Shown here in pieces: positions 32,982 to 47,113 of a DNA stretch of 64,000 bases. Numbering within the stretch: position 1 is the stretch's first letter; every line of letters starts with the position of its first letter. The notes under the pieces were generated by a model. The model saw only the letters and a list, made by a program, of their open reading frames with translations. It ran no database searches and was not told the DNA's origin. The DNA is from a virus. The DNA lies in the IMG/VR virus record IMGVR_UViG_3300020172_001405, positions 37,465 to 101,464 of that record; one strand, given 5' to 3'. The position numbers and the translations under genes are program-made.

Positions 32982-34727
32982 TTAAATTGTACCTAAGAAA
33001 TTATCGAGTGTTGATCCTTGAGACCCCGATGAAGGGGCTTTAATTATACCTACTGAGGTTCCTTTTGTAGGACTCGTAGGCGTAATAACTATATTTGAGC
33101 CTAGCTGGCTTGTCAATCCCGCAGCAGCATAGGCTTTAGCGGTAATTTGGTTGCCAACAGTAGAGACAATTAATGACCCTACAGTAGTGTAGCCAGAGTT
33201 TGTGTTGGTAGCTAGGCGGGTAGCAGATTGAGAAACTACGTTTCCAGACACTGAGCTAACAATAACAAGGTCTGTGTAGTAGGTAGTATCTCCACCAGAG
33301 TAAGATACCCCTGAACAGCAGCCAGATGGTGTACATCCCGCCCCTGAACAGGTAGCTTGTCCTCCAGAGCAAGAGCTGCTAGTTCCTATTTGATTTTGGT
33401 TTAGGCCCCCACACGCACCGCCCGTATAGCAGTTAAATCCTGTGCAAGATGCAGACCCTGTGCAGCTACTAGTCTGCTGCAGTTCCCCGCAATAGTATTG
33501 CGTTGATGAGGTTGAAGATTGTGTATGGCAATTATAGTAATCAGTATGTGAAGGGTACGTACTTTGATTATAGTTTCCAATACATTTTCCAGAGGTAACT
33601 GTTGTAGTTTCGCAATTTTCCCAACAATAAATAGTTTGAGTGTTGCAGTTTCCAGTACAGGATGTGGTAGTGCTATCACTAGTTCTACAGCAAACAAATG
33701 CGGCGTTTTGAATACATTGGCTGCTGGTCGAGTTAGGTACTACTACGCTCCCTGGAGAACAGCCATCTCCACCATATTGTGGATTTTCTGCGGGGTAGTA
33801 AGAAAACCCACTACCCGGACTAGTTACAGATCCTGAACATTGTGTACCGCAGGCAGCTATACTATAGGTAGTGTACGGCACAGACCCTGAACATTGTGTG
33901 CCGCATTGGGGGATAACATACCTAGTTGAAGTGCTTGTAGTTTGCTCGCGTAATGTACCTGGGCAACAGTTAGCCGAAGGACTTCCCGTCCAGCCTAGAT
34001 AAGTGTTTGTATAATCACAATAAGAGTTGTCTACTTGTGTAGTTTGTGTATATGCAAACGTAGCACCACAACCTGAAGCACAACTACCAAGTGTGACTCC
34101 GTTTTGATAATTGCTACAAGTGAGTTGCCCCGGAATAGAGGTAACGGGAGAACAGCATCCTGAAGGAACGCACCCAGTCCCTCCTCCAGAACAAGGGCTA
34201 GTAGTTCCCAAACTTCTAGTTCCTGTACAAGCAGAGCCGGCTTGAGATGTATTCCAGGTAGAGTAGTAATAGCTAAAAGATTGAGTGGTTGTGCAACTTC
34301 CTACAATAGCTGAAGTAGACTGAGTATATTGAGGGTACGTAGCCCACCAAGATCCGGAGTCGGTTATCCAAAAAACAGCGCCGGTGCCTCCTGAAACATC
34401 TGCTCTTACAGAAACATCTGTATTACCTAGATTAGCTGAAGCAATTGGGTAAGAGCTTGCCGCATCATCTGAAGTGGCTGAGTTAGACCCACTAATACGC
34501 CAATTTCCACGAAGTGCTGTCCATACTTGTCCGCTGTCTGCGGTGCCTAGGCCAGTAGTAGTTGATGCTCTATTAAAAGCGTCTTGAACTTTAGAAGCAA
34601 ACCATTGTCTCCATACTCCATTAACTTTAATGAATGCCGAAGTAGCCGTTCTCCATTGACCACTTACTTTTACTGAAAGACCAGATGCGGTCCTCCAGGC
34701 ACCATTAATTTTGGAGTTACCTGGCAT
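32982..34727 (-). CDS. Fibre-like protein with a 36-cysteine insert
   Basis: 581 aa. Residues 1-43 contain three short repeats (INGAWRTASG, VSGQWRTATS, VNGVWRQW), common at the start of phage minor tail or fibre proteins. Residues 48-135 look like the first part of a lectin-like beta sandwich (DAFNRAS, GNWRISGSNS, FWITDSGSWW). Residues 145-471 are Ser/Thr/Gly-rich with 36 cysteines; both flanks have none. The sandwich appears to resume after it (YYTDLVIVSS, GSLIVSTVGN). Insert repeats include GCVPSGCCS/GCTPSGCCS and two copies of CGTQCSGSV. Probably a disulphide-stabilised or metal-binding adhesion module. Confidence 0.6.
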   Translation of the reverse strand: MPGNSKINGAWRTASGLSVKVSGQWRTATSAFIKVNGVWRQWFASKVQDAFNRASTTTGLGTADSGQVWTALRGNWRISGSNSATSDDAASSYPIASANLGNTDVSVRADVSGGTGAVFWITDSGSWWATYPQYTQSTSAIVGSCTTTQSFSYYYSTWNTSQAGSACTGTRSLGTTSPCSGGGTGCVPSGCCSPVTSIPGQLTCSNYQNGVTLGSCASGCGATFAYTQTTQVDNSYCDYTNTYLGWTGSPSANCCPGTLREQTTSTSTRYVIPQCGTQCSGSVPYTTYSIAACGTQCSGSVTSPGSGFSYYPAENPQYGGDGCSPGSVVVPNSTSSQCIQNAAFVCCRTSDSTTTSCTGNCNTQTIYCWENCETTTVTSGKCIGNYNQSTYPSHTDYYNCHTQSSTSSTQYYCGELQQTSSCTGSASCTGFNCYTGGACGGLNQNQIGTSSSCSGGQATCSGAGCTPSGCCSGVSYSGGDTTYYTDLVIVSSVSGNVVSQSATRLATNTNSGYTTVGSLIVSTVGNQITAKAYAAAGLTSQLGSNIVITPTSPTKGTSVGIIKAPSSGSQGSTLDNFLGTI

Positions 34728-35941: not shown

Positions 35942-36466
35942 TTATCCTAGGGGTGATTGGGCGGCAAATTTAGTAGATTCATCACCAAAAACAAAGGTAG
36001 TTATTGAGTACCTTTCCCCCTCTACAACCGGAAATACTTGATGTTTAAGGTGGGCACTATGAATGACCATGCTTCCTGCTCTCGGGGTAATGCTTAGGCC
36101 AAGAGTTGGGTATATTAGCTCTCCCCCAGTAAAGTCGTCATTTAGATATATAGCAATACCGAAGACTATTTTTCTTGGGTCATCAGGGTTTCCACCATCT
36201 GTATGGGGCCACATAAACTCTGAGTTTGTTAACTTTCGTAAATCGCGAGAATAGGCAATCGACCCCACATTAGTAAAAAATGTTTCAATACTTTTATACA
36301 CAGTTTGCGCTTTAAAGTACATCTCATCACCCATATCTTTAACTATGTTTCCTATATGTAGGGTAGTCCAGTCTACGTTTTCTTTAGCCTTAGATAAAAA
36401 AGCCATTCTCTGCTCTTCATCTAAAAACTTTTCAATTTCGTATACACCTTCTGCATGTACTTTCAC
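35942..36466 (-). CDS. 2OG-Fe(II) oxygenase, prolyl-4-hydroxylase type (1)
   Basis: 174 aa, the shortest of the seven. Iron ligands: HTD (H88, D90) and H142 in LKHQV; R152 in ERYS binds the 2-oxoglutarate carboxylate. The intervening phrase YLNDDFTGGELIYP is the P4H-type signature shared by its neighbours. It should hydroxylate a protein or small-molecule substrate using O2 and 2-oxoglutarate. It ends the cassette at its promoter-distal side, one base after the SDR gene. Confidence 0.85.
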   Translation of the reverse strand: MKVHAEGVYEIEKFLDEEQRMAFLSKAKENVDWTTLHIGNIVKDMGDEMYFKAQTVYKSIETFFTNVGSIAYSRDLRKLTNSEFMWPHTDGGNPDDPRKIVFGIAIYLNDDFTGGELIYPTLGLSITPRAGSMVIHSAHLKHQVFPVVEGERYSITTFVFGDESTKFAAQSPLG

Positions 36467-37138
36467 TTAGTTGCCCCACTTGCTACTGTTGATGTGGCAA
36501 ATTTCAATTTCGTTTATATTAACATGGCTCGGCAACGACCCCACCCAGTAGATAGCTTCTGCCAGATCTTCTGCGGTCAATGCCTGATCTCGTTTTTGTT
36601 CTTGGGTATCAATGGTGGCCGGACAGATCTCCGTAATTTTAATGCCAAATTGGGGGAACTCAAGCCTCATCGTATCAATTAAGCCGCGCTCACCCCTCTT
36701 AGCATTTGTGTAGTTTCCTCCACCACGGTAGGGCACCTTACCACCAAAGGAAGTAATAAATATAATAGTTGGGGACTGCGACCTTTCCATGCAGGGTACA
36801 AATAGTTGGGACAGGTACATAGGGCCAGTAACGTTTATGTCGTAGGCTCTTCTAAAGTTTTCTGGGGTTTCATTAATAATATTGGTTGGGCCCGACCCGC
36901 CGCCAGCATTATTAACCAAAAGATCTAGTGTTATGTCTTTGTACTTCTCAAAGAAGCACTCTATTGCTTTAGAGTCTGTTACGTCTAGTTGATAAACCTC
37001 AACGTTGTTAGATACAAGCTTAGAGACTTTAGAAAGGTCTCTTGAAACAGCAATAACTTTATACCCATTTTCAGACAGGCGCCTAACTGTCGCTAATCCT
37101 ACGCCTTTACTGGCCCCTGTAACTATTGCTGTTTTCAA
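36467..37138 (-). CDS. Short-chain dehydrogenase/reductase (SDR)
   Basis: 223 aa. Classical SDR motifs are intact: nucleotide-binding TGASKGVG (residues 7-14), NNAG (76-79), and the catalytic set S130, Y143, K147 (YTNAK). An R-D pair after the second strand (VSRDLS) favours NADP(H). A typical SDR is about 250 aa, so it is slightly short. It overlaps no neighbour but is directly abutted by oxygenase genes on both sides. Substrate unknown; it may act on the product of a neighbouring hydroxylase or on a sugar. Confidence 0.85.
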   Translation of the reverse strand: MKTAIVTGASKGVGLATVRRLSENGYKVIAVSRDLSKVSKLVSNNVEVYQLDVTDSKAIECFFEKYKDITLDLLVNNAGGGSGPTNIINETPENFRRAYDINVTGPMYLSQLFVPCMERSQSPTIIFITSFGGKVPYRGGGNYTNAKRGERGLIDTMRLEFPQFGIKITEICPATIDTQEQKRDQALTAEDLAEAIYWVGSLPSHVNINEIEICHINSSKWGN

Positions 37139-37894
37139 TTACATGCCTTGGTTCTTATTAAGCTCCATGTTGTTATGGATCCAATGTCCAGGGATCATAT
37201 ATTTAAAACCAGATTTTACAACGTGTGCTGTATGGAAATAGGGCGGAAATGCTGGAAATATTACAACGCTATTTTCCTTTGGCTTTAGGCCAAAGTCGAT
37301 TGCTTTATCTGCAACAGCTATATCATAGTCTAGGTCTACTCCTGGAGCTGACCCTTTAGAAAAACCATCAGCGCTGGTCCACCCGCCGTCATAGTCCTTT
37401 AGTTGAAAAGATATTTCTCCGCCTTCACAGTCATCGTTTAGGTACATAACTAATGAGTACCTTAACGTTTTATCCCCGTCTAGTTGGTCAAAGTGTGCGC
37501 CCATGCCCACTCCAGTATTGTACTTTTTTATGTTAAAGGTTGGAAAAAGCCTTGGCTCATCAAAGTCTCCCAAAGAAGCGGCATAGTCTTTGCAAACATT
37601 ATACATTGTAGTCATAATAGCGTTGTAGATATACTTACTTTTTTCTGCTACTTCAGCTGAATCCTGCGAAAAGATTGGGCTAAGCTTGTGTATTGCATTA
37701 ATATCAAAAGTTTTTGTTTCTCCGTAGATAAAATCTTTATCATTAGAGGCAGTCCAAGGGTTCCAAACATTTACCCCTGAATCTGGGTATTGTTCAAGAG
37801 CATCTAACTCTTTTAAGATTTTTTTAAAAGTACCAAAATCTTCAATAGCATCAGTATAGTAATATGCTTTTGGGTCTAGTATTTCTCTATTCAT
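37139..37894 (-). CDS. 2OG-Fe(II) oxygenase (2), Lys-type
   Basis: 251 aa. HFD (H134, D136), distal His in the HTAHVV segment (H224) and a lysine at 231 (GFKY) where several paralogues have Arg. The core YLNDDCEGGEISF is followed by a 40-residue insertion not found in the others. Lys at the carboxylate-binding position is typical of collagen-type prolyl 4-hydroxylases. Substrate unknown. Confidence 0.82.
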   Translation of the reverse strand: MNREILDPKAYYYTDAIEDFGTFKKILKELDALEQYPDSGVNVWNPWTASNDKDFIYGETKTFDINAIHKLSPIFSQDSAEVAEKSKYIYNAIMTTMYNVCKDYAASLGDFDEPRLFPTFNIKKYNTGVGMGAHFDQLDGDKTLRYSLVMYLNDDCEGGEISFQLKDYDGGWTSADGFSKGSAPGVDLDYDIAVADKAIDFGLKPKENSVVIFPAFPPYFHTAHVVKSGFKYMIPGHWIHNNMELNKNQGM

Positions 37895-37905
37895 GCTCTT
37901 CTTCC

Positions 37906-38565
37906 TTAGTATTTATTTCTTGTATAGTGGTCTTTTTCTTTAATGAACCCGACAAGAACGTACCTTATTGGACCATCCCCTACGTGCTTGACGCCGTGCT
38001 CATACTCTTCGTTTCCTGGAAAAAATAACATAGTTCCTGGTTTAGGTTTTAACTGAATATTAAGATTTGGAAAAAATAACTCGCCATCCGCATAGTTATC
38101 GTTAATGTATACAATTGTAGCGTACTTTATAGAGGGGTCTGTTTTTTGATCAGTATGCGCTTTTAACTCTACCCCTGGTTGCATCCTTTGAATTGTTGCA
38201 AAACCACTTAAAATTAATTCTGGGTCAGCTTTTATTACCATTGAGTTTACAACGTCATATAAAGGTCTTTGAATTTCATGATGTAGTATGTTAAAGTTTT
38301 TATCTTTCCAATTTTGAGTAATTTCAAACTTGCCCTCAGCAACCAGATTTTCTACATCATCTCTGCCAAATTTTTCCATGCAAAAATACTTTAAGTTTGC
38401 GTGGTACTCTACTTCCCAATCTTCTTGAGATGTACTATGAATAATGTCCCAAAAAGTGTCTATTTGGTCTTGTGATAGAAAATTTTCAACAGAGAATAGT
38501 TCTGGGGTAATGTCTGTAACTACATAACCACTCTCTTTTAGCTGTTGTTTAAAAACCTCAATCAT
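37906..38565 (-). CDS. 2OG-Fe(II) oxygenase (3)
   Basis: 219 aa. HTD (H137, D139), YEHGV with H190 and R201 in IRYVLVGF; core YINDNYADGELFFPN and LKPKPGTMLFFPG. All catalytic residues present. N-terminal 100 residues vary from paralogues and could set specificity. Overlaps the next gene upstream by eight bases. Confidence 0.85.
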   Translation of the reverse strand: MIEVFKQQLKESGYVVTDITPELFSVENFLSQDQIDTFWDIIHSTSQEDWEVEYHANLKYFCMEKFGRDDVENLVAEGKFEITQNWKDKNFNILHHEIQRPLYDVVNSMVIKADPELILSGFATIQRMQPGVELKAHTDQKTDPSIKYATIVYINDNYADGELFFPNLNIQLKPKPGTMLFFPGNEEYEHGVKHVGDGPIRYVLVGFIKEKDHYTRNKY

Positions 38566-39313
38566 TTGAAATATCTTCTATTTTGTACTTATTTCCAGCA
38601 GCATCTAATTTCCAACCCTGCTTAAGAAGCTCTTGCCACTCTGCTCGTTCAATTTCTTGTTGAGCTCTAGTAGCTTTCATTTCTTCAGCCCAAGCATCTC
38701 TTACTTCTTGTGGATAATCTGACTCTTCTCGGTCATCCCAGAAAGATCCAATGGTGTATCTTACGCCGCTTTCTATTAAAGAAACTTCGTGCATGTTATT
38801 AAATCCGCCGTCAAATACGGCAAGCATTCCAACCTCTGGTTTAATCTCTATATTTTGACTTGGGAACTTAAGTAATCCGCCCTTAAAGTCATCATTAAGA
38901 TATAGAAACCCAGCATAGCGGCTTCTTGTAAATGCGCCCGAGTTTCCTTCAGCGTCTGTGTTGTCGGAATGAATTCTTGCGTATGCTCCTGGCTCCCACT
39001 TTTGTGTGTGGTACCCAATTTTACAAATTGTTTTTGGGTCTAAATCGTGGACTGAGGCAATTGCTTCTGGCATTGCTTTTTCAATGTCTGAAAATATAGT
39101 TGGGGAGAGGCCAGCGTCAATTACTTCTTGGTCGTTATCTTGTGGCAAAACTGAAGAGTATGACTCATAAAATGAGATAGGCATCCAAGAAATTGCACCG
39201 TTGGCTGCTTGAGCATCCAGGGCTTGAATCATTTTTTTGCAGTCTTCTTTGCCTATAAAGTTTTCATAAACAACTAGGTCTTTTGTTATTCTTTTTTTGT
39301 TTTTCAAATTCAT
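38558..39313 (-). CDS. 2OG-Fe(II) oxygenase (4)
   Basis: 251 aa. HSD (H115, D117), MHEV with H175, R185 in VRYTIGSFW; core YLNDDFKGGLLKFPS. A helical C-terminal extension of about 60 residues (ERAEWQELLKQGWKLDAAGN) is unique to this copy and may mediate binding. Complete active site. Confidence 0.85.
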   Translation of the reverse strand: MNLKNKKRITKDLVVYENFIGKEDCKKMIQALDAQAANGAISWMPISFYESYSSVLPQDNDQEVIDAGLSPTIFSDIEKAMPEAIASVHDLDPKTICKIGYHTQKWEPGAYARIHSDNTDAEGNSGAFTRSRYAGFLYLNDDFKGGLLKFPSQNIEIKPEVGMLAVFDGGFNNMHEVSLIESGVRYTIGSFWDDREESDYPQEVRDAWAEEMKATRAQQEIERAEWQELLKQGWKLDAAGNKYKIEDISND

Positions 39314-39329
39314 CGTATTTTTGCTCCGT

Positions 39330-40103
39330 CTAGTTATTTATAAGTGATTTATCTCCAGCAATAAGCTTTTCTATTTCCTGCTGAACAAGGGCGTACTCTT
39401 CTTCAAATACTTCTGGGGTTCTGCCTTCTCCCATAGTAGCGGGAATTCCTTCTTCTAGAAGGGCCTCTTTTAATGTCTTTTCAATATCATAATTTAAAAC
39501 AGTGCACTGAAACCAGTTTGCTACATACCCATCTTTATCAATAAGGTACTTTTCAAAGTTTCCGCCCTGCTCAGCACCATTAGAAATAGGCTGATTAAGC
39601 CAAGGGGATAGGTACCCGTCTCTATCTGGAATGCCAAGTTCTTTTTGTTTTGCAGCATATGCGTGCATTTGGTCTTTAATCTCCCGATACAATTCATGGG
39701 TTTCTTGTTTAGGCTGACCTAAGCCGTTTACAGAATTATCCCCTTTATGCTCACTTAATGCATTTGCACTTTCATTTGGGTTTGATGAGACCATTTCTGA
39801 AAACTGAAAAGTAGTTCCATAAACATCTTTGCCGTACTCTTGTGAGTCCGCCCCACAGGTAATACCTTGTGACCACTTACCCTTAGTAATCCCTACCCCA
39901 CAGTAGTCATTAGTAGGGATAGCAATTACCTGGAAATCATCTCCGCCGTACTTATCTTGAAGCCATTGTAGAACTTCCATCTGGTTTGCATTGCCGCAGC
40001 CAACTGTGGTGTTTGCCAGTAGCGTTACTTTACCCTTAAACTGGTTTAAGAAGCCCGGAGACCCGTCAGCCGAGTTAAGCGGAATATCATAGATCGATTT
40101 CAT
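39330..40103 (-). CDS. Glutathione-peroxidase/thioredoxin-fold protein
   Basis: 257 aa. The start SIYDIPLNSADGSPGFLNQF then GKVTLLANTTVGCGNANQME matches glutathione peroxidases, whose pattern is GKVLLIVNVAS-C-G-xTxQ; the peroxidatic Cys is C36. Later GGNFEKYLIDKDGYVANWF matches the family's NFEKFLVD segment. It is about 80 residues longer than usual, with a mid insertion around residues 100-160 and a helical tail. It could protect iron enzymes or the infected cell from peroxide, or have lost that activity. Confidence 0.7.
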   Translation of the reverse strand: MKSIYDIPLNSADGSPGFLNQFKGKVTLLANTTVGCGNANQMEVLQWLQDKYGGDDFQVIAIPTNDYCGVGITKGKWSQGITCGADSQEYGKDVYGTTFQFSEMVSSNPNESANALSEHKGDNSVNGLGQPKQETHELYREIKDQMHAYAAKQKELGIPDRDGYLSPWLNQPISNGAEQGGNFEKYLIDKDGYVANWFQCTVLNYDIEKTLKEALLEEGIPATMGEGRTPEVFEEEYALVQQEIEKLIAGDKSLINN

Positions 40104-40124
40104 GTGGTTTATTGTACTCCGTTA

Positions 40125-40811
40125 CTACGGCTTTCTATCCCCTGTATGCGCGGTTATTTCCCAAAAAAATGGGCATGTAAATCTTAGGCCGCTCTTGATC
40201 TCAGTAACCCCGTGAATGTAGTTTTTATCCCCTGGGAAGAAGTAAGCGGCGCCCTTTTTAGGTTTAAACTGTACGCCCTGCAGTGGGAAGTAGAGCTCCC
40301 CACCTTCATAGTCGTCGTTTAAATAGAACAGACTCGAGAGGTCATAGTTTGGAAAATCATTAGGTGTTCCAGCATCTGGGCCCTCATGAAGCTCTTTATC
40401 AGCATGAGGTTTTTGAAACTGCCCAGGGAGCCATTTAACAATAGTCGTACCAGTTGGAATAACCTCTACCTTATAAAACTCTTCAATAATTGGCCTTAGT
40501 CTTTGAAATAGCCCTGCAATTATTGGGGATATCTTTGGATCATTTTTATCCAAAGTGGGTTGGGTTGCAACCCTATCTTTCCAGTAATCTGAGTCGTAAG
40601 TGACTGTACCATTCTCATTTGTATGGCTTTGAGTTACATCCCAGATTGTTAGAGACTTAGCTGCTTTTTCTAAAAACTCTATCTCTTCTTGAGTCATAAA
40701 GTTCTCTAGCTCTACGATCATGTCTTTGCTATCTCCAAACCAGCCAGACGGTGTCATAGACGGCGTTCTTTTTGCTACGGTATATGAATCTTTGTTTTGT
40801 TCCATGTTCAT
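40125..40811 (-). CDS. 2OG-Fe(II) oxygenase (5)
   Basis: 228 aa. HAD (H136, D138), IHGV with H200, R210 in LRFTCPFFW; core YLNDDYEGGELYFPL and PKKGAAYFFPG. Complete active site. N-terminus MNMEQNKDSY is disordered-looking. It overlaps the DUF6065-like gene upstream by four bases, suggesting tight coupling. Confidence 0.86.
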   Translation of the reverse strand: MNMEQNKDSYTVAKRTPSMTPSGWFGDSKDMIVELENFMTQEEIEFLEKAAKSLTIWDVTQSHTNENGTVTYDSDYWKDRVATQPTLDKNDPKISPIIAGLFQRLRPIIEEFYKVEVIPTGTTIVKWLPGQFQKPHADKELHEGPDAGTPNDFPNYDLSSLFYLNDDYEGGELYFPLQGVQFKPKKGAAYFFPGDKNYIHGVTEIKSGLRFTCPFFWEITAHTGDRKP

Positions 40812-41524
40812 AGTATATTCCCTTTCGTTTTATCTACTACCCCTAATTTTAATGCTTTTACTTCATGGGAGCCTTGAGACTCTTCTTTTTCATTTACAGC
40901 GTCTCTATACCAGTCTGTCCATTTTCCAGCAGAGTTTATTGCTTGTGCGGCAGTCCCATAGGACATGTTTGCATCTAGTCTTTTTCTGTCTGGATCCCTA
41001 TACTCAACAATCTCAATATCTGTCCCATTTAAATTTGACAAAGATATGGGGATAATTGTGGCAACTGGGGTTCCCGCCTTAATAACTACACGCTTATTTG
41101 CAGTCTTTGCCTTGATAGCTAAAGGCAACGGGTTGTCATAAAACGAAGTGCTAATTAAAGACGCCATTGTCTCAAACTCATCACTAAAATAATTTACTGG
41201 GTTAATGGTAAAGATACTAACATCCTGCTCTGTCCTAAAAACTAAGCCTGTATTTAGGCTTATAGAGGACTGACCTCTTCCAGAATAAGATCCTTCTGGA
41301 CTAAATACTTGAACATGATCTGGAGTTTGGTCGTTTACACCATCCCAAATAAACTCAATATCTTCTAGACAAGACAGGCTCCAGCCAATTACATTTGATT
41401 GGGTTACTGGAAAACACCTATAAGCATGGTTCTCTGATGTTGCATCCATCCAGTCTCTTTTAATTGACATAGGTTGGATATCAAACAAAGCCCCCTGTGT
41501 TTTTTCAACGGAGATCTTAAACAT
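40808..41524 (-). CDS. DUF6065-like protein between two oxygenases
   Basis: 238 aa. The segment HAYRCFPVTQSNVIGWSLSC followed by LEDIEFIWDG matches my recollection of DUF6065 proteins (C-x-P-x-x-x-A/S-N-x-x-G-W, then FxxxWDG). A beta-rich middle follows (GLVFRTEQDVSIFTINPVNY, then IIPISL). No catalytic residues known. It shares overlaps of four bases and one base with its oxygenase neighbours. May be a cupin-like accessory protein; function unknown. Confidence 0.55.
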   Translation of the reverse strand: MFKISVEKTQGALFDIQPMSIKRDWMDATSENHAYRCFPVTQSNVIGWSLSCLEDIEFIWDGVNDQTPDHVQVFSPEGSYSGRGQSSISLNTGLVFRTEQDVSIFTINPVNYFSDEFETMASLISTSFYDNPLPLAIKAKTANKRVVIKAGTPVATIIPISLSNLNGTDIEIVEYRDPDRKRLDANMSYGTAAQAINSAGKWTDWYRDAVNEKEESQGSHEVKALKLGVVDKTKGNIL

Positions 41525-42180
41525 TAATCTGCGTCTGCGCTATACATTTCTGGAGTATGGAACTTTTTGCTGTAGTCAAGCATTGTTACAATAGAGTACT
41601 TAGTTCCAGAGGTTACTGGCATTGCTTGGTGTGGGTACATAAAGTTTGACGGGAAAATAAACAGGTCTCCAGCTTCTGGTTTAACCTTTAAGTTTTGCAG
41701 TCTAAAGTAGAGCTCCCCGCCCTCATAGTCATCATTGACGTATGAGACTAGAGAAACAGTGCAGTTATAAGAAAAGCCGTGGTCATGGTGCTCCATGAAG
41801 TGCTGGCCTGGACCATACTTAATAAAGTTAAACGCTTCCCAGTACTTTAAATTATTAATATTATACATTCTTGAATAATCTTGTACCGCAGGCAGTTTGG
41901 CATCATACAGGTCTTGCCAAAGGGTTTGAAGGTTTTGTGATATTTCGCTTTTGTCTGGTTCTAGATCTGTTTTTTTAAACTTAAAGTCGTTGCAGTCTCT
42001 ATACTCTGGCATAAGCTGTTTATACCCAACATAGGCGGGTTGCCAAGCGTATCCAGTCGTATCTCCTTCTGGCTTAAGGTTAGCCTCAAGCCTATTTATC
42101 ACATCAAAACTTTCTTTAATAACTCCCTTGTAACGAAATATGCCGTTTCCAAGGTCTTCTTTTTCTGTCCATGTCTGCAT
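41524..42180 (-). CDS. 2OG-Fe(II) oxygenase (6), Lys-type
   Basis: 218 aa. EHHDHGF supplies H131 and D133, YPHQAMP gives H184, and K194 in GTKYSIVTM replaces Arg. The core YVNDDYEGGELYFRL is conserved. A Cys-containing phrase RDCNDFKFK (about 61-69) recurs in oxygenase 7 as RDCVDFKYK, showing that these two are the closest pair. Likely duplicated from one ancestor. Confidence 0.86.
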   Translation of the reverse strand: MQTWTEKEDLGNGIFRYKGVIKESFDVINRLEANLKPEGDTTGYAWQPAYVGYKQLMPEYRDCNDFKFKKTDLEPDKSEISQNLQTLWQDLYDAKLPAVQDYSRMYNINNLKYWEAFNFIKYGPGQHFMEHHDHGFSYNCTVSLVSYVNDDYEGGELYFRLQNLKVKPEAGDLFIFPSNFMYPHQAMPVTSGTKYSIVTMLDYSKKFHTPEMYSADAD

Positions 42181-42189
42181 TATGCTCTC

Positions 42190-42957
42190 CTATTTGTAGT
42201 CTCTTTTTGACCAAATTTTGTTTTGATATACCCCACCATCAGGCTGGCGGTAAAATTGCATGTTATTAACTAGTTTATCATACATCGTAGATTGATCTGG
42301 AATTTCTATTTTGTGCTCCCAGTTTTCTCGTTTAAACGGAAGAACCTGCATGTATGGGGTTCCTTCTGGCAAGGTACCTTCCCAGCCTTCTGGAAGAAAA
42401 AATGGAAAAGTTCCAAGTAAGTGGAGTTTATCCGAGTCTACGACGCCAGTAGTATTTAAAAATGGTAAGTCAAACCTATTCATTGGCGTCATAAACAGGG
42501 CACTGTATCCTTCTGGAAGCTCTAGCCCCCAGGGAGAACTCCAAGCAAAATGAGTTTGGTAGTATCCCTTTGGGTGCTCAAACTGTGGCATTGGAGGCCT
42601 TTGGGTACAAAAATCCTGATACTTAGGGTTATCAATCTTTACATCTATAATTCCCTGATCGTTTTTATAAAAAACTAAATCGCAGGGTGTCTTAAAAACG
42701 TACCCGGTTGTAAAGGCGTCCATAATAGCTGGGCACGCTTTCCACGTAGGAATCTTTCCATAGTCATCAGTTGTGCCTTCTTTAGGAAATGGGCAAACTT
42801 CTTTTGGCGCTTTGTAGTATTCCCCGTTTGGCATTTTTGCAAATCTGTCTGCGTCTTTATACCAATCTGGCATTTGTGTTTGTGTTGGTACGGGGACAGA
42901 AATATGCTTCTTATCTATCCACGGCCTAAAAGATCTAAATATAGCTACTAAAGACAT
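42190..42957 (-). CDS. DUF6065-like/uncharacterised protein
   Basis: 255 aa. MPDWYKDADRF, KACPAIMDAFTTGYVFKTPC and DLVFYKNDQG resemble proteins found beside phage oxygenases in aquatic phages, with a pattern parallel to the 40808-41524 protein (Cys-Pro, G-Y/W, then a D-x-x-F/Y strand). FTTGYVF is followed by beta segments ending YMQVLPFKRENW. No enzyme motif seen. It lies between oxygenases 6 and 7. Confidence 0.5.
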   Translation of the reverse strand: MSLVAIFRSFRPWIDKKHISVPVPTQTQMPDWYKDADRFAKMPNGEYYKAPKEVCPFPKEGTTDDYGKIPTWKACPAIMDAFTTGYVFKTPCDLVFYKNDQGIIDVKIDNPKYQDFCTQRPPMPQFEHPKGYYQTHFAWSSPWGLELPEGYSALFMTPMNRFDLPFLNTTGVVDSDKLHLLGTFPFFLPEGWEGTLPEGTPYMQVLPFKRENWEHKIEIPDQSTMYDKLVNNMQFYRQPDGGVYQNKIWSKRDYK

Positions 42958-43664
42958 TACTTGTGCCCCAATTCATTGATATCTGTCATAACAACAACGC
43001 AGTATTTTGTCCCTGAAACCATCGGCAGAGAAGCATGTTCATAAATATAGTTTGACGGGAAGACTGCAATGTCCCCTACTTTTGGTTTATAAACTAAATT
43101 ATCAAGTCTTGGGAACTTTAGATCTCCACCCTCATAATCATCATTAATATAGATAACGGCAGACACAGTACAGTTATATGCGGGACCGTGATCTGCATGA
43201 ATATTAAAGTGGGTACCGCTTCCCTCATACTTTACAAAGTTAAATGCCTCGTAATACACTACGTTAATGCCCCAATACCTGGCATAATCATCTATGCAGT
43301 ACTTAAGCTTTTGATAGATTTCTTCATGCAAGTCTATAAGTTCTGCATTTGTTTCGTCTCTTGGGCCAAGGTTTTCCTGCTTGTACTTAAAATCTACGCA
43401 GTCTCTTGCCTTCTTAACTGGAACGGCAGACTGAGTAACCTGTGCTTCTGACCACTTATACTTATTTCCTGGAGATAGGTTGGACTCAAGAGTATTGATA
43501 TATCTGGTGGCATCCTCAATAGAGAAAGTATTTTGGTAAACGTGTAGGCCCAAACCTAAGTTTTTGACGCTTACTTTATTATCTAGCGCCCTCTCAGGAA
43601 CCCTATTTGAGGCTGTCTCTGACCTATCTTTTGTAAACCAGGCATTTTCATTTTCATCGTGCAT
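42957..43664 (-). CDS. 2OG-Fe(II) oxygenase (7), Lys-type
   Basis: 235 aa. HADH (H156, D158), YEHASLP with H210, K220 in GTKYCVVVM; core YINDDYEGGDLKFPR. Closest to oxygenase 6 (shared RDC-x-DFK, EAFNF-x-KY, YNCTVS and SGTKY phrases). First oxygenase gene in the transcriptional order. Its upstream neighbours are the zinc-ribbon gene and the fibre cluster. Confidence 0.86.
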   Translation of the reverse strand: MHDENENAWFTKDRSETASNRVPERALDNKVSVKNLGLGLHVYQNTFSIEDATRYINTLESNLSPGNKYKWSEAQVTQSAVPVKKARDCVDFKYKQENLGPRDETNAELIDLHEEIYQKLKYCIDDYARYWGINVVYYEAFNFVKYEGSGTHFNIHADHGPAYNCTVSAVIYINDDYEGGDLKFPRLDNLVYKPKVGDIAVFPSNYIYEHASLPMVSGTKYCVVVMTDINELGHK

Positions 43665-43683: not shown

Positions 43684-43929
43684 TTAATCGAGTGGTTGTT
43701 TTTTCCATTTTCCAATAGGGCACTCTGCATCGGCAAGTGTTGTTTTTAGAGGCATAATGCACCCGCATAGCTTACAGCTTTTTGTAACTTTAATGAGGTT
43801 TTCACAAGAGAGGCACTCGTCAAGTCTTTTTTTAATAATCTCTGGGTCATTAATTTTTTTGCCAGAATCAATTAGGTGCCAAGGCCTTGAGTCCCCAAGA
43901 GCTTCTTTCCACTCGCTCCATTTAGACAT
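43684..43929 (-). CDS. Zinc-ribbon protein, paralogue of 32728-32973
   Basis: 81 aa, same length as its paralogue. SRPWHLIDSGKKI, then ECLSCENLI, SCKLCGCIMPLKTTL and ECPIGKWKKQ. The CxxC...CxxCGCxMxLKxxL...CPxxKW signature is identical between the two. The pair brackets the oxygenase cassette and the first fibre cluster. Confidence 0.68.
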   Translation of the reverse strand: MSKWSEWKEALGDSRPWHLIDSGKKINDPEIIKKRLDECLSCENLIKVTKSCKLCGCIMPLKTTLADAECPIGKWKKQPLD

Positions 43930-43932
43930 GAG

Positions 43933-44367
43933 CTACTCCGGATCAGTAAAAGTTGCGCCATCCCAGATAGAGCCGCGAACGGCTGTTTGACCTTCTGGTA
44001 CTTTAATAATGATAACCTCTTGAGCAAACGCAGCGGCGTTCATCAAATCTGTGTGACTATTTTTTGGGGCCACCGTAGTTAAAAAAACGGTGTTGTCTAC
44101 TAGGAAAGAGTATCTTCCCCAGTCAGGAGTGTCATTGAATCTTTCAGGTCTTTCTCCGCCTACAAACGATTCACCATCCCAAACTGATCCAGGATATACC
44201 TCTGGAATATCTGTTGTATTCATTGTGATTATTGGAAGTCCACTATCTAACGCAGCATCAATACGCTGGATTAAAGCGTGTGCTTTAGGGCCATCAAGAT
44301 GCAGCGTATTAAAAACTTCGTAAGAGTCTTCAGATACTTTTACTGCGTATGCGTATGTGCAAGTCAT
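43933..44367 (-). CDS. Hypothetical fibre-region protein
   Basis: 144 aa. Contains two short modules of the form GSxWDGxxF (GSVWDGESFVGG and the C-terminal GSIWDGATFTDP), with an internal linker WGRYSFLVDNTVFLTTVAP. The ending resembles that of the small protein at 32522-32731. Seen in my memory near fibre genes of marine and freshwater phages. Function unknown. Confidence 0.55.
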   Translation of the reverse strand: MTCTYAYAVKVSEDSYEVFNTLHLDGPKAHALIQRIDAALDSGLPIITMNTTDIPEVYPGSVWDGESFVGGERPERFNDTPDWGRYSFLVDNTVFLTTVAPKNSHTDLMNAAAFAQEVIIIKVPEGQTAVRGSIWDGATFTDPE

Positions 44368-44386: not shown

Positions 44387-45358
44387 TTAGTAAGCACACT
44401 GACAGCCGCAACCCGCACCAAAGTCGTAAGCGCAGAAGTAACAGGCTGAACCACAGCCACCAAAGCTTGGGAAAGATGGTGGGAAGAAAGGCGGGAAGAA
44501 TGGTGGAAAGAACGGGAAGAACGGAGGGAAAAATGGTGGGAAGAACGGAAAGAACGGAAAGAATGGTGGAAAGAATGGTGGAAAGAACGGAAAGAATGGC
44601 GGAAAGAAGGGCGGGAAGAATGGGAAGAATGGGAAAAATGGTGGGAAGAATGGAGGAAAGAATGGGAAGAAGGGTGGAAAGAATGGTGGGAAAAATGGTG
44701 GAAAGAATGGTGGGAAGAATGGGAAGAATGGAAAGAACGGCGGAAAGAACGGAGGAAAGAATGGGGCTAGGGTAGTAATTGATCCAGATGCAGGCGAAGC
44801 AACGCTTGTTCCATTAGCGTTAGTGGCAGTAACTGTGTAAGTCTGCGAGGTATCCGCGGTATCATTAATAGTAATTGGGGAGGTAGCACCTGTGCCAGTA
44901 GTAGCATCAGAGCCTGTTACGGTAAAGCCAGTAATGGCGCTACCGCCAGTTGCTGGGGCTGTAAAAGCAATTGAGTTCTGATTAACTCCAGCAGTTGGAG
45001 TTGGCGCAGACATTGTTGCAGGAACTGTTGTTGCGGTAATAGAAGCAGAGGCTGTAGATGCCTGAGAGGTTCCGGCAGCGTTTGTTGCGGTTACGGTAAA
45101 TGTGTAGGATGTGGCAGACTGAAGTCCAGCTACTGTAATTGGAGAAGATGCGCCAGTTCCTGTATATCCGCCAGGAGATGAAGTTACAGTAAATGATGTA
45201 GCGGCAGGAGATAGTGCAGGCAAAGAGAAGGTAACTGTCGCTGCGCCATTGTTAAACGCTCTGCCTGTTCCAACATCTGTGGCAGATACGCCTGTGGGTG
45301 CTAATGGCTCTAGAAAGTCATTTGATGCAGCAGAACGTCTGCCCGTCTTCTTAGCCAT
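44387..45358 (-). CDS. Fibronectin-III protein with Phe-Phe-Pro repeat and Cys-rich tip
   Basis: 323 aa. Residues about 15-105 and 110-195 are two fibronectin type III domains (AATSFTVTSSPGGYTGTG; SYTFTVTATNAAGTSQAS; AITGFTVTGSD; TYTVTATNANGTS). From about 198 to 290 the chain is almost only F and P: about 25 blocks of FFPP or FFP. It ends GGCGSACYFCAYDFGAGCGC with seven cysteines in the last 28 residues. Fn3 domains are common on phage surfaces; the FFP stalk and Cys tip are unusual. Possibly an adhesin or membrane-active fibre tip. Confidence 0.8.
   Translation of the reverse strand: MAKKTGRRSAASNDFLEPLAPTGVSATDVGTGRAFNNGAATVTFSLPALSPAATSFTVTSSPGGYTGTGASSPITVAGLQSATSYTFTVTATNAAGTSQASTASASITATTVPATMSAPTPTAGVNQNSIAFTAPATGGSAITGFTVTGSDATTGTGATSPITINDTADTSQTYTVTATNANGTSVASPASGSITTLAPFFPPFFPPFFPFFPFFPPFFPPFFPPFFPPFFPFFPPFFPPFFPFFPFFPPFFPPFFPFFPPFFPPFFPFFPFFPPFFPPFFPFFPPFFPPFFPPSFPSFGGCGSACYFCAYDFGAGCGCQCAY
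44468..44768 (-). repeat. Purine-rich (plus strand) tandem repeat encoding FFP/FFPP
   Basis: About 300 bases are almost exclusively G and A on the plus strand, built from units like GGAAAGAAT and GGTGGGAAGAA. The protein has a higher-order unit of seven blocks (4-4-3-3-4-4-3 residues, 25 residues, 75 bases) that recurs at least twice exactly at protein level. Third-codon positions vary between copies (TTC/TTT, CCA/CCC/CCG/CCT), so the repeat has been kept by selection on the protein and is not a recent slippage product. A + strand ORF here is an antisense shadow. Confidence 0.85.
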
Positions 45359-45370
45359 TTATCCCCCCTA

Positions 45371-47113
45371 TTATGCTGTTAGATCGCCGTAAACTACCCA
45401 AGTATTTGTTGCTCTCTTGAATAGTGTGCATGAAGACCATGTTGTTCTTAGCTTTAATCCCGGTGTTGCGTTTACTGTTACTCCAGCATCTCCAGCAATT
45501 GTTACCTGTCCCGTAGAAGTTTGGAGAATATCAATAGATGTTCCAACCGGAAAAGCCACTGCTGAGTTTAGAGGGATAGTAATTGTTGTAGCGCTTCCAC
45601 TAGCAACTTCAATTAAACTATCTCTTTCAGTTAATGCTGACAGTGTGTATGACGCTGTCTTTTGAATAATTGGTGTGCGTGAAGGCGCAGCTTCTTTTGT
45701 TTGTGTTCCGTCTGAAAACACAATTCCTTCCGCAGGAAGAGTTACTGTTCCAGTAAATGTTGGTGAAGCAAGTGGTGCTTTTAGTGCAAGATTAGTTGTG
45801 ACTGTGCTAGCAAAGTTTGCGTCATCACCAAGTGCTGCTGCAAGCTCATCAAGAGTATTAAGTGCTGCTGGAGCACCTGATAGTAGTGCGTTAACTTGTG
45901 ATGTTGCATCTGCGATTGCTTCTGACTTAGCAGTCGCAATTGCTGTAGCCTGTGCTGTAGATACTGGCTTTGCTGTATCTGCTGTATCATCAACATTGCC
46001 GAGGCCTACCATAGACTTTGTAATACCAGAGACTGTACCTGTAAATGTAGGGTTTGCAAGGTTGGCTTTTAAATCAAGAGCAGTCTGTTGCGCGGTTGAT
46101 ACCGGCTTGCTTGCATCTGCCGTGTTATCAACATTTCCAAGACCTACGTCTGACTTAACTAATCCCGCTGGGGTAGTAATTGTTTTATTTGTAAGCGTTT
46201 GAGATCCAGTTGTTGTTACAAGAATGCTGGTATCCGTAATCCCATGAACAGCGGTAGTATCTGAAGAATGAGTAGAAACTGCACTATCGGCATAGGTCTT
46301 TGTAGCAAGCTCTGCTGTATCTGCAATGCCATGTACGGCCGTTGTATCTGCAATGTGTGTTGAGACTACACCATCAGCATAGGTTTTTGTGGCTAGTGCT
46401 GAAGTATCCGGTATACCATGAACATCTGTAGTGTCTGAACTATGTGTGCTTACAGCAGTGTCTGCGTATGTTTTTGTGGCAAGTGCTGCTGTATCCGTAA
46501 TTCCATGCACATCCAAAGTATCTGTAGAGTGTGTAGAAAGTGATGTAGAGACTGCATTATTTGCTGCACTATCGGCATAGGACTTAGTAGCAAGCTCTGC
46601 TGTATCTGCAATTCCGTGGACACTTGTTGTATCTGAAGAGTGTGTAGACACAGCGCTGTCTGCATACGTCTTTGTAGCAAGCGCTGAAGTATCCGCAATG
46701 CCGTGAACAGAGGTTGTGACTGAAGTGTGTGTGCTTACCGCGCTATTTGCGTAATCTTGTGTAGCAAGTGTTCCTGTTGAGTCTGGAAGAGTCAATGTTC
46801 TATCTGCTGTAGGGTCTGCTACTACAAGAGTAGTCTCAAAATCATTTGCAGTTTGGCCTTCAAACACAAGGTTGACACCAGTGCCCAAAGACACTGAGCC
46901 GGTAAAAGTAGGGTTATTAATTGTGGCGTAGAGGCTTGCTGCAGCTGATGGAGTTAAGGTTATATAAGGTAGGGAAGCCCAAACTGTAAGTCCGTCTCCA
47001 ACCTTAAGCTTCTTACTATCAGTTTCTACGCCAACCTCTCCTTCAAGAAGGATTGGGTTTGATGCGGTCCACTCAGCCGCAGTTCCCCTGCGTAGTAGAA
47101 TACTAACTGCCAT
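45371..47113 (-). CDS. Tail fibre with Mtd-like N-terminus and 29-residue repeats
   Basis: 580 aa. The N-terminus ILLRRGTAAEWTASNPILLE then GEVGVETDSKKLKVGDGLTV is the Mtd-like/fibre-attachment motif seen in many phage fibres. Residues about 125-300 hold six tandem repeats of about 29 residues with the core STHSSDTTSVHGIADTSALA and TKTYADSAV. KSDVGLGNVDNTADASKPVS (twice, variant) is a hallmark of long tail fibres. The C-terminal beta domain (TSIDILQTSTGQVTIAGDAG) is typical of aquatic phage fibres. Confidence 0.85.
   Translation of the reverse strand: MAVSILLRRGTAAEWTASNPILLEGEVGVETDSKKLKVGDGLTVWASLPYITLTPSAAASLYATINNPTFTGSVSLGTGVNLVFEGQTANDFETTLVVADPTADRTLTLPDSTGTLATQDYANSAVSTHTSVTTSVHGIADTSALATKTYADSAVSTHSSDTTSVHGIADTAELATKSYADSAANNAVSTSLSTHSTDTLDVHGITDTAALATKTYADTAVSTHSSDTTDVHGIPDTSALATKTYADGVVSTHIADTTAVHGIADTAELATKTYADSAVSTHSSDTTAVHGITDTSILVTTTGSQTLTNKTITTPAGLVKSDVGLGNVDNTADASKPVSTAQQTALDLKANLANPTFTGTVSGITKSMVGLGNVDDTADTAKPVSTAQATAIATAKSEAIADATSQVNALLSGAPAALNTLDELAAALGDDANFASTVTTNLALKAPLASPTFTGTVTLPAEGIVFSDGTQTKEAAPSRTPIIQKTASYTLSALTERDSLIEVASGSATTITIPLNSAVAFPVGTSIDILQTSTGQVTIAGDAGVTVNATPGLKLRTTWSSCTLFKRATNTWVVYGDLTA
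46200..46750 (-). repeat. Coding tandem repeats in tail fibre gene
   Basis: Six copies of an approximately 87-base unit encode THSSDTTSVHGIADTxxLAT and KTYADSAV. Copies differ at synonymous and some non-synonymous sites (VHGIADT, VHGITDT, VHGIPDT). One copy has a short insertion (AANNAVSTSL). They form a fibre shaft; copy number could change by recombination. Confidence 0.8.

Follow-up and report, generated by a model that had tools for sequence, protein, structure and literature searches.

In collagen and extensin, several related 2-oxoglutarate (2OG) oxygenases of the prolyl 4-hydroxylase (P4H) and prolyl 3-hydroxylase families modify different prolines within a repetitive structural protein. 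Phages of aquatic habitats frequently encode 2OG oxygenases as well, mostly unexplained, and even the best-known viral P4H still lacks an assigned natural substrate. Here we describe a phage locus in which a cassette of seven 2OG oxygenases (OG1 to OG7) lies beside the gene for a fibronectin type III (Fn3) protein, FPrich, that carries an array of phenylalanine-proline units. The locus is part of a 64,000-nucleotide window (the whole stretch of DNA analyzed), which spans bases 37465-101464 of the linear, 101,464-bp IMG/VR record IMGVR_UViG_3300020172_001405; the parts of the record outside the window were covered as loci L007 and L008.

The closest described systems each share some features with this locus. 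PMC9301287 and PMC7019647, which cite Eriksson 1999, credit the chlorovirus PBCV-1 with a P4H. That system consists of a single enzyme in a virus of a eukaryotic host, with no established viral substrate, whereas here up to ten enzymes adjoin a candidate array. A profile built from all seven oxygenases matches PDB 5c5t (E 1.6e-7), which we take to be the PBCV-1 enzyme. Most of the solved structures closest to this profile are prolyl hydroxylases, and Bacillus anthracis P4H and prolyl 3-hydroxylase 1 are among its top structural relatives – a likeness to collagen and extensin hydroxylation. Here, however, the repeat is Phe-Pro, the enzymes come from a phage operon, and no collagen-like G-X-Y run of at least eight units was found in the 101-kb record, which led us to reject a collagen-like substrate. 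T4-like cyanophages carry scattered 2OG-Fe(II) oxygenases, several per genome, with a proposed metabolic role (PMC3037559). These share the superfamily and phrog_61 with the enzymes described here and match OG2 and OG3 weakly, but most of the length of these matches falls short of 35%.

Among 50,697 phage records, we found no match to FPrich or to the cassette protein D2 and no near match to the cassette DNA, and the cassette protein D1 matched haloarchaeal viruses only; none of the phage isolates searched carries the set. Neither DUF6065 (the family of D2) nor the motif FFPPFFP is mentioned in the open-access literature that we searched. On phage prolyl hydroxylases, we found only metabolic or annotation-level remarks there, and we found no description of a seven-oxygenase gene order. 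The enzyme family is old; the combination of a Phe-Pro array and a matched multi-oxygenase cassette appears to be undescribed.

The array gene and the oxygenase cassette

The cassette consists of 11 minus-strand open reading frames at 35942-43664, in which neighbors overlap by 1-8 bp or lie at most 21 bp apart. A preliminary description, made from the sequence alone, had reported this tightly overlapping operon with its seven oxygenases, SDR (short-chain dehydrogenase/reductase), GPx-like (glutathione peroxidase-like) protein, D1 and D2, all of which are present. It had not included the Fn3 and Phe-Pro-array gene at 44387-45358, where the functional unit begins, further upstream than previously placed. 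Along minus-strand transcription, the order is FPrich, a 144-amino acid protein, an 81-amino acid CxxC protein, OG1, D1, OG2, D2, OG3, GPx, OG4, OG5, OG6, SDR and OG7.

FPrich (44387-45358, minus strand) has an N-terminal Fn3 domain (PF00041, over cut-off), a stretch of 96 residues that are purely F and P, and a Cys-rich end; in relatives, too, its gene immediately precedes the cassette. Its array (44462-44764, minus strand), the sole one of its kind in the 101-kb record, comprises 17 FFPP and 9 FFP units. The array codons differ synonymously (CCA, CCG, CCT and CCC for Pro; TTC and TTT for Phe); the residues are therefore preserved even though the underlying DNA does not repeat uniformly. The grammar is strict across 168 distinct arrays – [F/Y]F-P or [F/Y]F-P-P, with Tyr restricted to position 1. 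In a wider set of ~2,390 units, Tyr occupies position 2 in three and longer Pro runs occur in six, and F and P together make up 96.4% of array spans. Fn3 homologs on other contigs (L382, L497, L429, L442, L447, L423, L472 and others) share one N terminus followed by varied aromatic repeats (YNFYNF, FGAFGA, FGFSPF, FFAPP, FCPFFPNFCP), and many of these variant C-termini continue into a Hint-like segment (CIDQDTLI...). Repeats of the type F[C/N/S]P are also found after this N terminus. The Fn3 C-termini are a family of exchangeable, low-complexity aromatic tails.

The oxygenases, all on the minus strand, are encoded at 42957-43664 (OG1), 41524-42180 (OG2), 40125-40811 (OG3), 38558-39313 (OG4), 37906-38565 (OG5), 37139-37894 (OG6) and 35942-36466 (OG7). 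OG3 belongs to the cassette core. OG1 to OG6 exceed the curated cut-off of PF13640, the P4H-type Fe(II)/2OG dioxygenases; OG7, a short enzyme that is rare in relatives, matches only phrog_61 and, below cut-off, Tet_JBP. All seven retain the HxD...H iron triad and the basic 2OG-binding K/R that had been read from the sequence. Alignment of ~514 orthologs from other contigs, which could have revealed missing iron ligands, found these residues invariant, alignment gaps aside.

OG1 and OG2 are sister clades that are 44% identical, a relation that fits an ancient duplication followed by specialization; identity among the remaining oxygenases is far lower. The seven are old paralogs, and we rejected the recent local duplication that the preliminary description had proposed to examine by phylogeny, since OG1 to OG6 form old orthologous clades common to divergent phages. 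We observed that these oxygenases are matched by phrog_2297, phrog_274 and phrog_3531, families probably misannotated under their labels of DNA endonuclease, endonuclease V and ferrochelatase.

Co-occurrence of array and cassette

Relatives of D1 are present on at least 375 viral contigs. Within the best 80 of these, the order OG1-D1-OG2-D2-OG3-(GPx or another OG)-OG4-OG5-OG6-(SDR) is mostly preserved as far as the contigs extend, and in remoter relatives D1, D2, OG1 and OG2 are reordered with the set retained. Of the genes named in the preliminary description, GPx is not part of the conserved set, the SDR is found in 31 of 60 relatives, and OG7 is rare.

Across IMG/VR, in many uncultured aquatic phages, the array and the cassette co-occur. 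Using array DNA alone as the query, and counting loci that extend 3 kb or more past the array, we found one or more downstream 2OG genes in 75 of 80 loci and two or more in 73 of 80. Of 75 loci seeded with D1, 74 have an array no more than 4 kb upstream. Several array proteins are distant from a cassette, and the same contigs bear one elsewhere (6-13 2OG genes). Of 25 further contigs, 20 have PF13640 genes and most of the remaining five stop near the array. In 16 contigs whose terminase shares 78% identity or more with that of the present phage, array and cassette are both missing in 15 and both present in one.

Comparison of Fn3 proteins gave the same association. We took 160 distinct and unambiguous Fn3 proteins, each followed by 5.5 kb or more of sequence, and scored the cassette by orthologs of OG1, OG2 or OG3. 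Such orthologs lie downstream of all 117 proteins with an F-P array and of none of the 43 that lack one and carry other repeats (e.g., FGFSPF, FGAFGA, YNF). Two apparent cases of an array without a cassette, L435 and L454, were rejected as FGFSPF repeats bearing one stray FFP/FYP match. Where a lone 2OG gene lies near FGFSPF repeats, its identity to cassette enzymes is mostly just 20-45%, over partial length. The Fn3 tree shows six or more changes of array status, with the cassette changing in the same direction.

Proline pattern, enzyme set and alternative explanations

The oxygenase set changes together with the array pattern. Arrays of (YFPP)n are accompanied by OG2 and D1 only, (YFP)n arrays by OG1, OG2 and D1, and long mixed arrays by the complete set. 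OG1 is present beside all 174 arrays with isolated prolines and is missing only beside doublet-only (Pro-Pro) arrays (6 of 6 cassettes, in two lineages, YFPP and FFAPP). One pair of contigs, L559 and L501, provides a natural near-isogenic contrast: their DNA is 91.6% identical through the array gene and 82.8% beyond it, and they differ in an ~730-bp OG1 gene and in YFP versus YFPP units. A search of the contigs over their full length, among them ones of 43 and 49 kb, revealed no second OG1. Six array proteins have OG1 without OG2; they appear to lie on truncated contigs or to be secondary arrays remote from the start of a cassette. The number of oxygenases, up to ten prolyl-hydroxylase-like enzymes per cassette, climbs with unit number (Spearman 0.80, n=98, kinship uncorrected). 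Other array features show nominal links to OG4, OG5 and SDR (e.g., Cys-rich ends with OG5) that perhaps reflect kinship and were not used.

Taken together, these comparisons suggest that the cassette is probably a dedicated system that modifies a phage tail-region protein, its oxygenases dividing the hydroxylation of array prolines among themselves. We favor the array as the substrate because array and cassette co-occur, co-change on the Fn3 tree, and OG1 tracks the proline pattern; the match between array pattern and OG1 would otherwise be hard to explain. The substrate would be the tail-region Fn3 protein, probably present in the virion, with its C-terminal [F/Y]F-P and [F/Y]F-P-P units. The P4H-type oxygenases encoded alongside it would hydroxylate the array prolines inside the infected cell, with OG1 acting on isolated prolines (F-P-F), OG2 on Pro-Pro doublets, and the remaining oxygenases on additional positions or in second hydroxylations of long mixed arrays. 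D1 and D2 would probably serve as binding partners or chaperones of the aromatic array, the SDR may oxidize part of the newly made hydroxyls, and the hydroxylated array would probably be used for host adsorption.

We give roughly even chances to a stronger version, in which array and matched, site-specific prolyl hydroxylases form a substrate-enzyme code that coevolves unit by unit and builds a densely hydroxylated fiber segment, which would be a phage protein material of a new class. If so, phages would produce a heavily hydroxylated Phe-Pro segment with dedicated tailoring enzymes; to our knowledge, such a protein material has no described counterpart. The locus supplies a concrete candidate substrate together with a minimal version – a (YFPP)n array, OG2 and D1 – and the L559/L501 contrast predicts which enzyme pairs with which proline. 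The preliminary description had proposed a post-translational or glycan modification pathway: the post-translational option is the better supported and gains a proposed protein substrate from strong comparative evidence, and the glycan option gained no support.

Several observations weigh against proline hydroxylation of the array. Three fragments of 38-62 kb (G004, G007 and G008) and several small ones carry an array without a PF13640 (2OG) gene. The tips of the Fn3 tree are related, so the raw counts of 117 and 43 are not independent events, and strongly supported branches hold only three of the co-changes (sign test p 0.25, not significant). The OG1 rule is built on two lineages only, and OG7 is an outlier among the oxygenases. 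In PBCV-1, according to PMC7019647, hydroxyproline was undetected in purified virions despite the encoded P4H.

Alternatively, the array could be the substrate of enzymes that oxidize or crosslink Phe and Tyr side chains, giving a polar or crosslinked aromatic fiber rather than mainly hydroxyprolines. Some 2OG enzymes do target residues other than proline, and every array type is rich in aromatics. Nonetheless, proline-free aromatic repeats (YNF, FGAFGA) lack cassette orthologs, OG1 presence tracks the proline rather than the aromatic pattern, and the nearest solved structures are mostly prolyl hydroxylases; we consider this alternative unlikely. Similarly improbable is that array and cassette merely travel together as one host-range module while the oxygenases act elsewhere – on another tail protein (such as the Cys-rich product of 32982-34727), a host surface molecule or a glycan. 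The surrounding tail-fiber genes, in a region given to modular exchange, would suit such a module. It is, however, at odds with the way OG1 matches the array pattern unit by unit, with minimal systems that consist of array, OG2 and D1, and with cassette-bearing contigs in which some array proteins sit apart from the cassette.

Hypermodification of nucleotides or DNA by TET/JBP-like oxygenases with dUTPase-like D1 and D2 was raised by weak Tet_JBP matches and by the fold of D1 and D2, and ribonucleotide reductase (RNR) or thymidylate synthase genes do lie near haloviral D1 relatives. We judge it very unlikely: OG7 and OG3 score 20-21 bits against the TET/JBP base oxygenase profile (PF12851), below its cut-off of 34.9, the best profile matches are of the P4H type, and the cassette lies in the tail region and tracks a protein array. 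Least probable of all, and barely credible here, is an auxiliary metabolic role, of the kind put forward for cyanophages (PMC3037559), in which consumption of 2OG would steer the nitrogen status of the host. Cyanophages are known with multiple 2OG genes each, but this role predicts neither ortholog-specific conservation nor a link to the array.

D1, D2, accessory genes and the tail region

D1 (42190-42957, minus strand) and D2 (40808-41524, minus strand) had been described as two DUF6065-like proteins. By Pfam this applies to D2 (PF19541, over cut-off) and not to D1, which has no Pfam match; phrog_7084 is common to both, and their profiles align at an hhalign probability of 94%. AlphaFold models (pLDDT 90.6 for D1 and 85.3 for D2) match the trimeric dUTPase (beta-clip) fold, D2 with a best E of 1.1e-4 and TMt ~0.7, D1 more weakly with a best E of 2.4e-3. 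DUF6065 thereby gains a fold and a genomic context. Neither protein has a significant sequence match to solved dUTPases. By inspection, the only trace of the five dUTPase catalytic motifs is a motif-3-like GVVDSD in D1, whose Asp174 and Asp176 are invariant.

Because D1 relatives accompany FGAFGA-type repeats even in the absence of any oxygenase (6 of 7 in class G), the role of D1 appears tied to the aromatic array itself rather than to oxygenation. Distant D1 relatives, ~28-32% identical, lie between RNR/thymidylate synthase genes and the tail cluster in haloviruses HF2 and HRTV-11 (L207 11866-12750; L208 9863-10750). As in the present phage, the haloviral gene is near tail genes, but no neighboring gene is annotated as a 2OG oxygenase; the nucleotide-metabolism context and the dUTPase-like fold hint at the origin of the D1 family. 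The sole match to D2 in a scan of bacterial genome contigs (L209 2951-3652) comes from a 5.3-kb contig assigned to a Chitinophagaceae metagenome-assembled genome; the contig is probably a misbinned phage.

The SDR (36467-37138, minus strand) scores 140 bits against PF00106 and has both TGASKGVG (TGxxxGxG) and the previously noted S130-Y143-K147, as in classical SDRs. The GPx-like protein (39330-40103, minus strand; PF00255, 35.1 bits versus a cut-off of 27) is likewise confirmed by its profile, but another 2OG gene holds its position in most relatives, and we rejected it as a core redox partner. In minimal modules, the gene after D1 (L559 7404-8105; L501 5504-6217) has no Pfam or PHROG match, but two of its segments (FPRSANTFL, RNPLDAIAS) resemble sulfotransferase motifs when read by eye; a possible later step would be to sulfate hydroxyls or Tyr. 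Two small genes separate FPrich from OG1, both on the minus strand: the 144-amino acid protein (43933-44367), often found between array gene and cassette, has no Pfam or PHROG match, and the 81-amino acid CxxC protein (43684-43929) is DUF6171-like, with a match below cut-off.

The phage encodes tail sheath and baseplate genes and is therefore contractile-tailed. Its host is likely actinobacterial, because its terminase (51-53% identical) and DNA polymerase (38-40%) resemble those of Streptomyces phages BRock, LuckySocke, Alone3, GiJojo and pSt2308; the GC content of the window is 43%. The cassette sits among tail-fiber genes. Upstream of FPrich, a fiber gene (45371-47113) encodes an N-terminal Mtd_N domain (PF18454) of major tropism determinant. 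Directly downstream of the cassette, 32982-34727 encodes a 581-amino acid tail-region protein that is rich in Cys, Ser and Tyr and has no Pfam match; it is a possible second substrate, and its long relatives in other contigs contain repeated TYPNC motifs.

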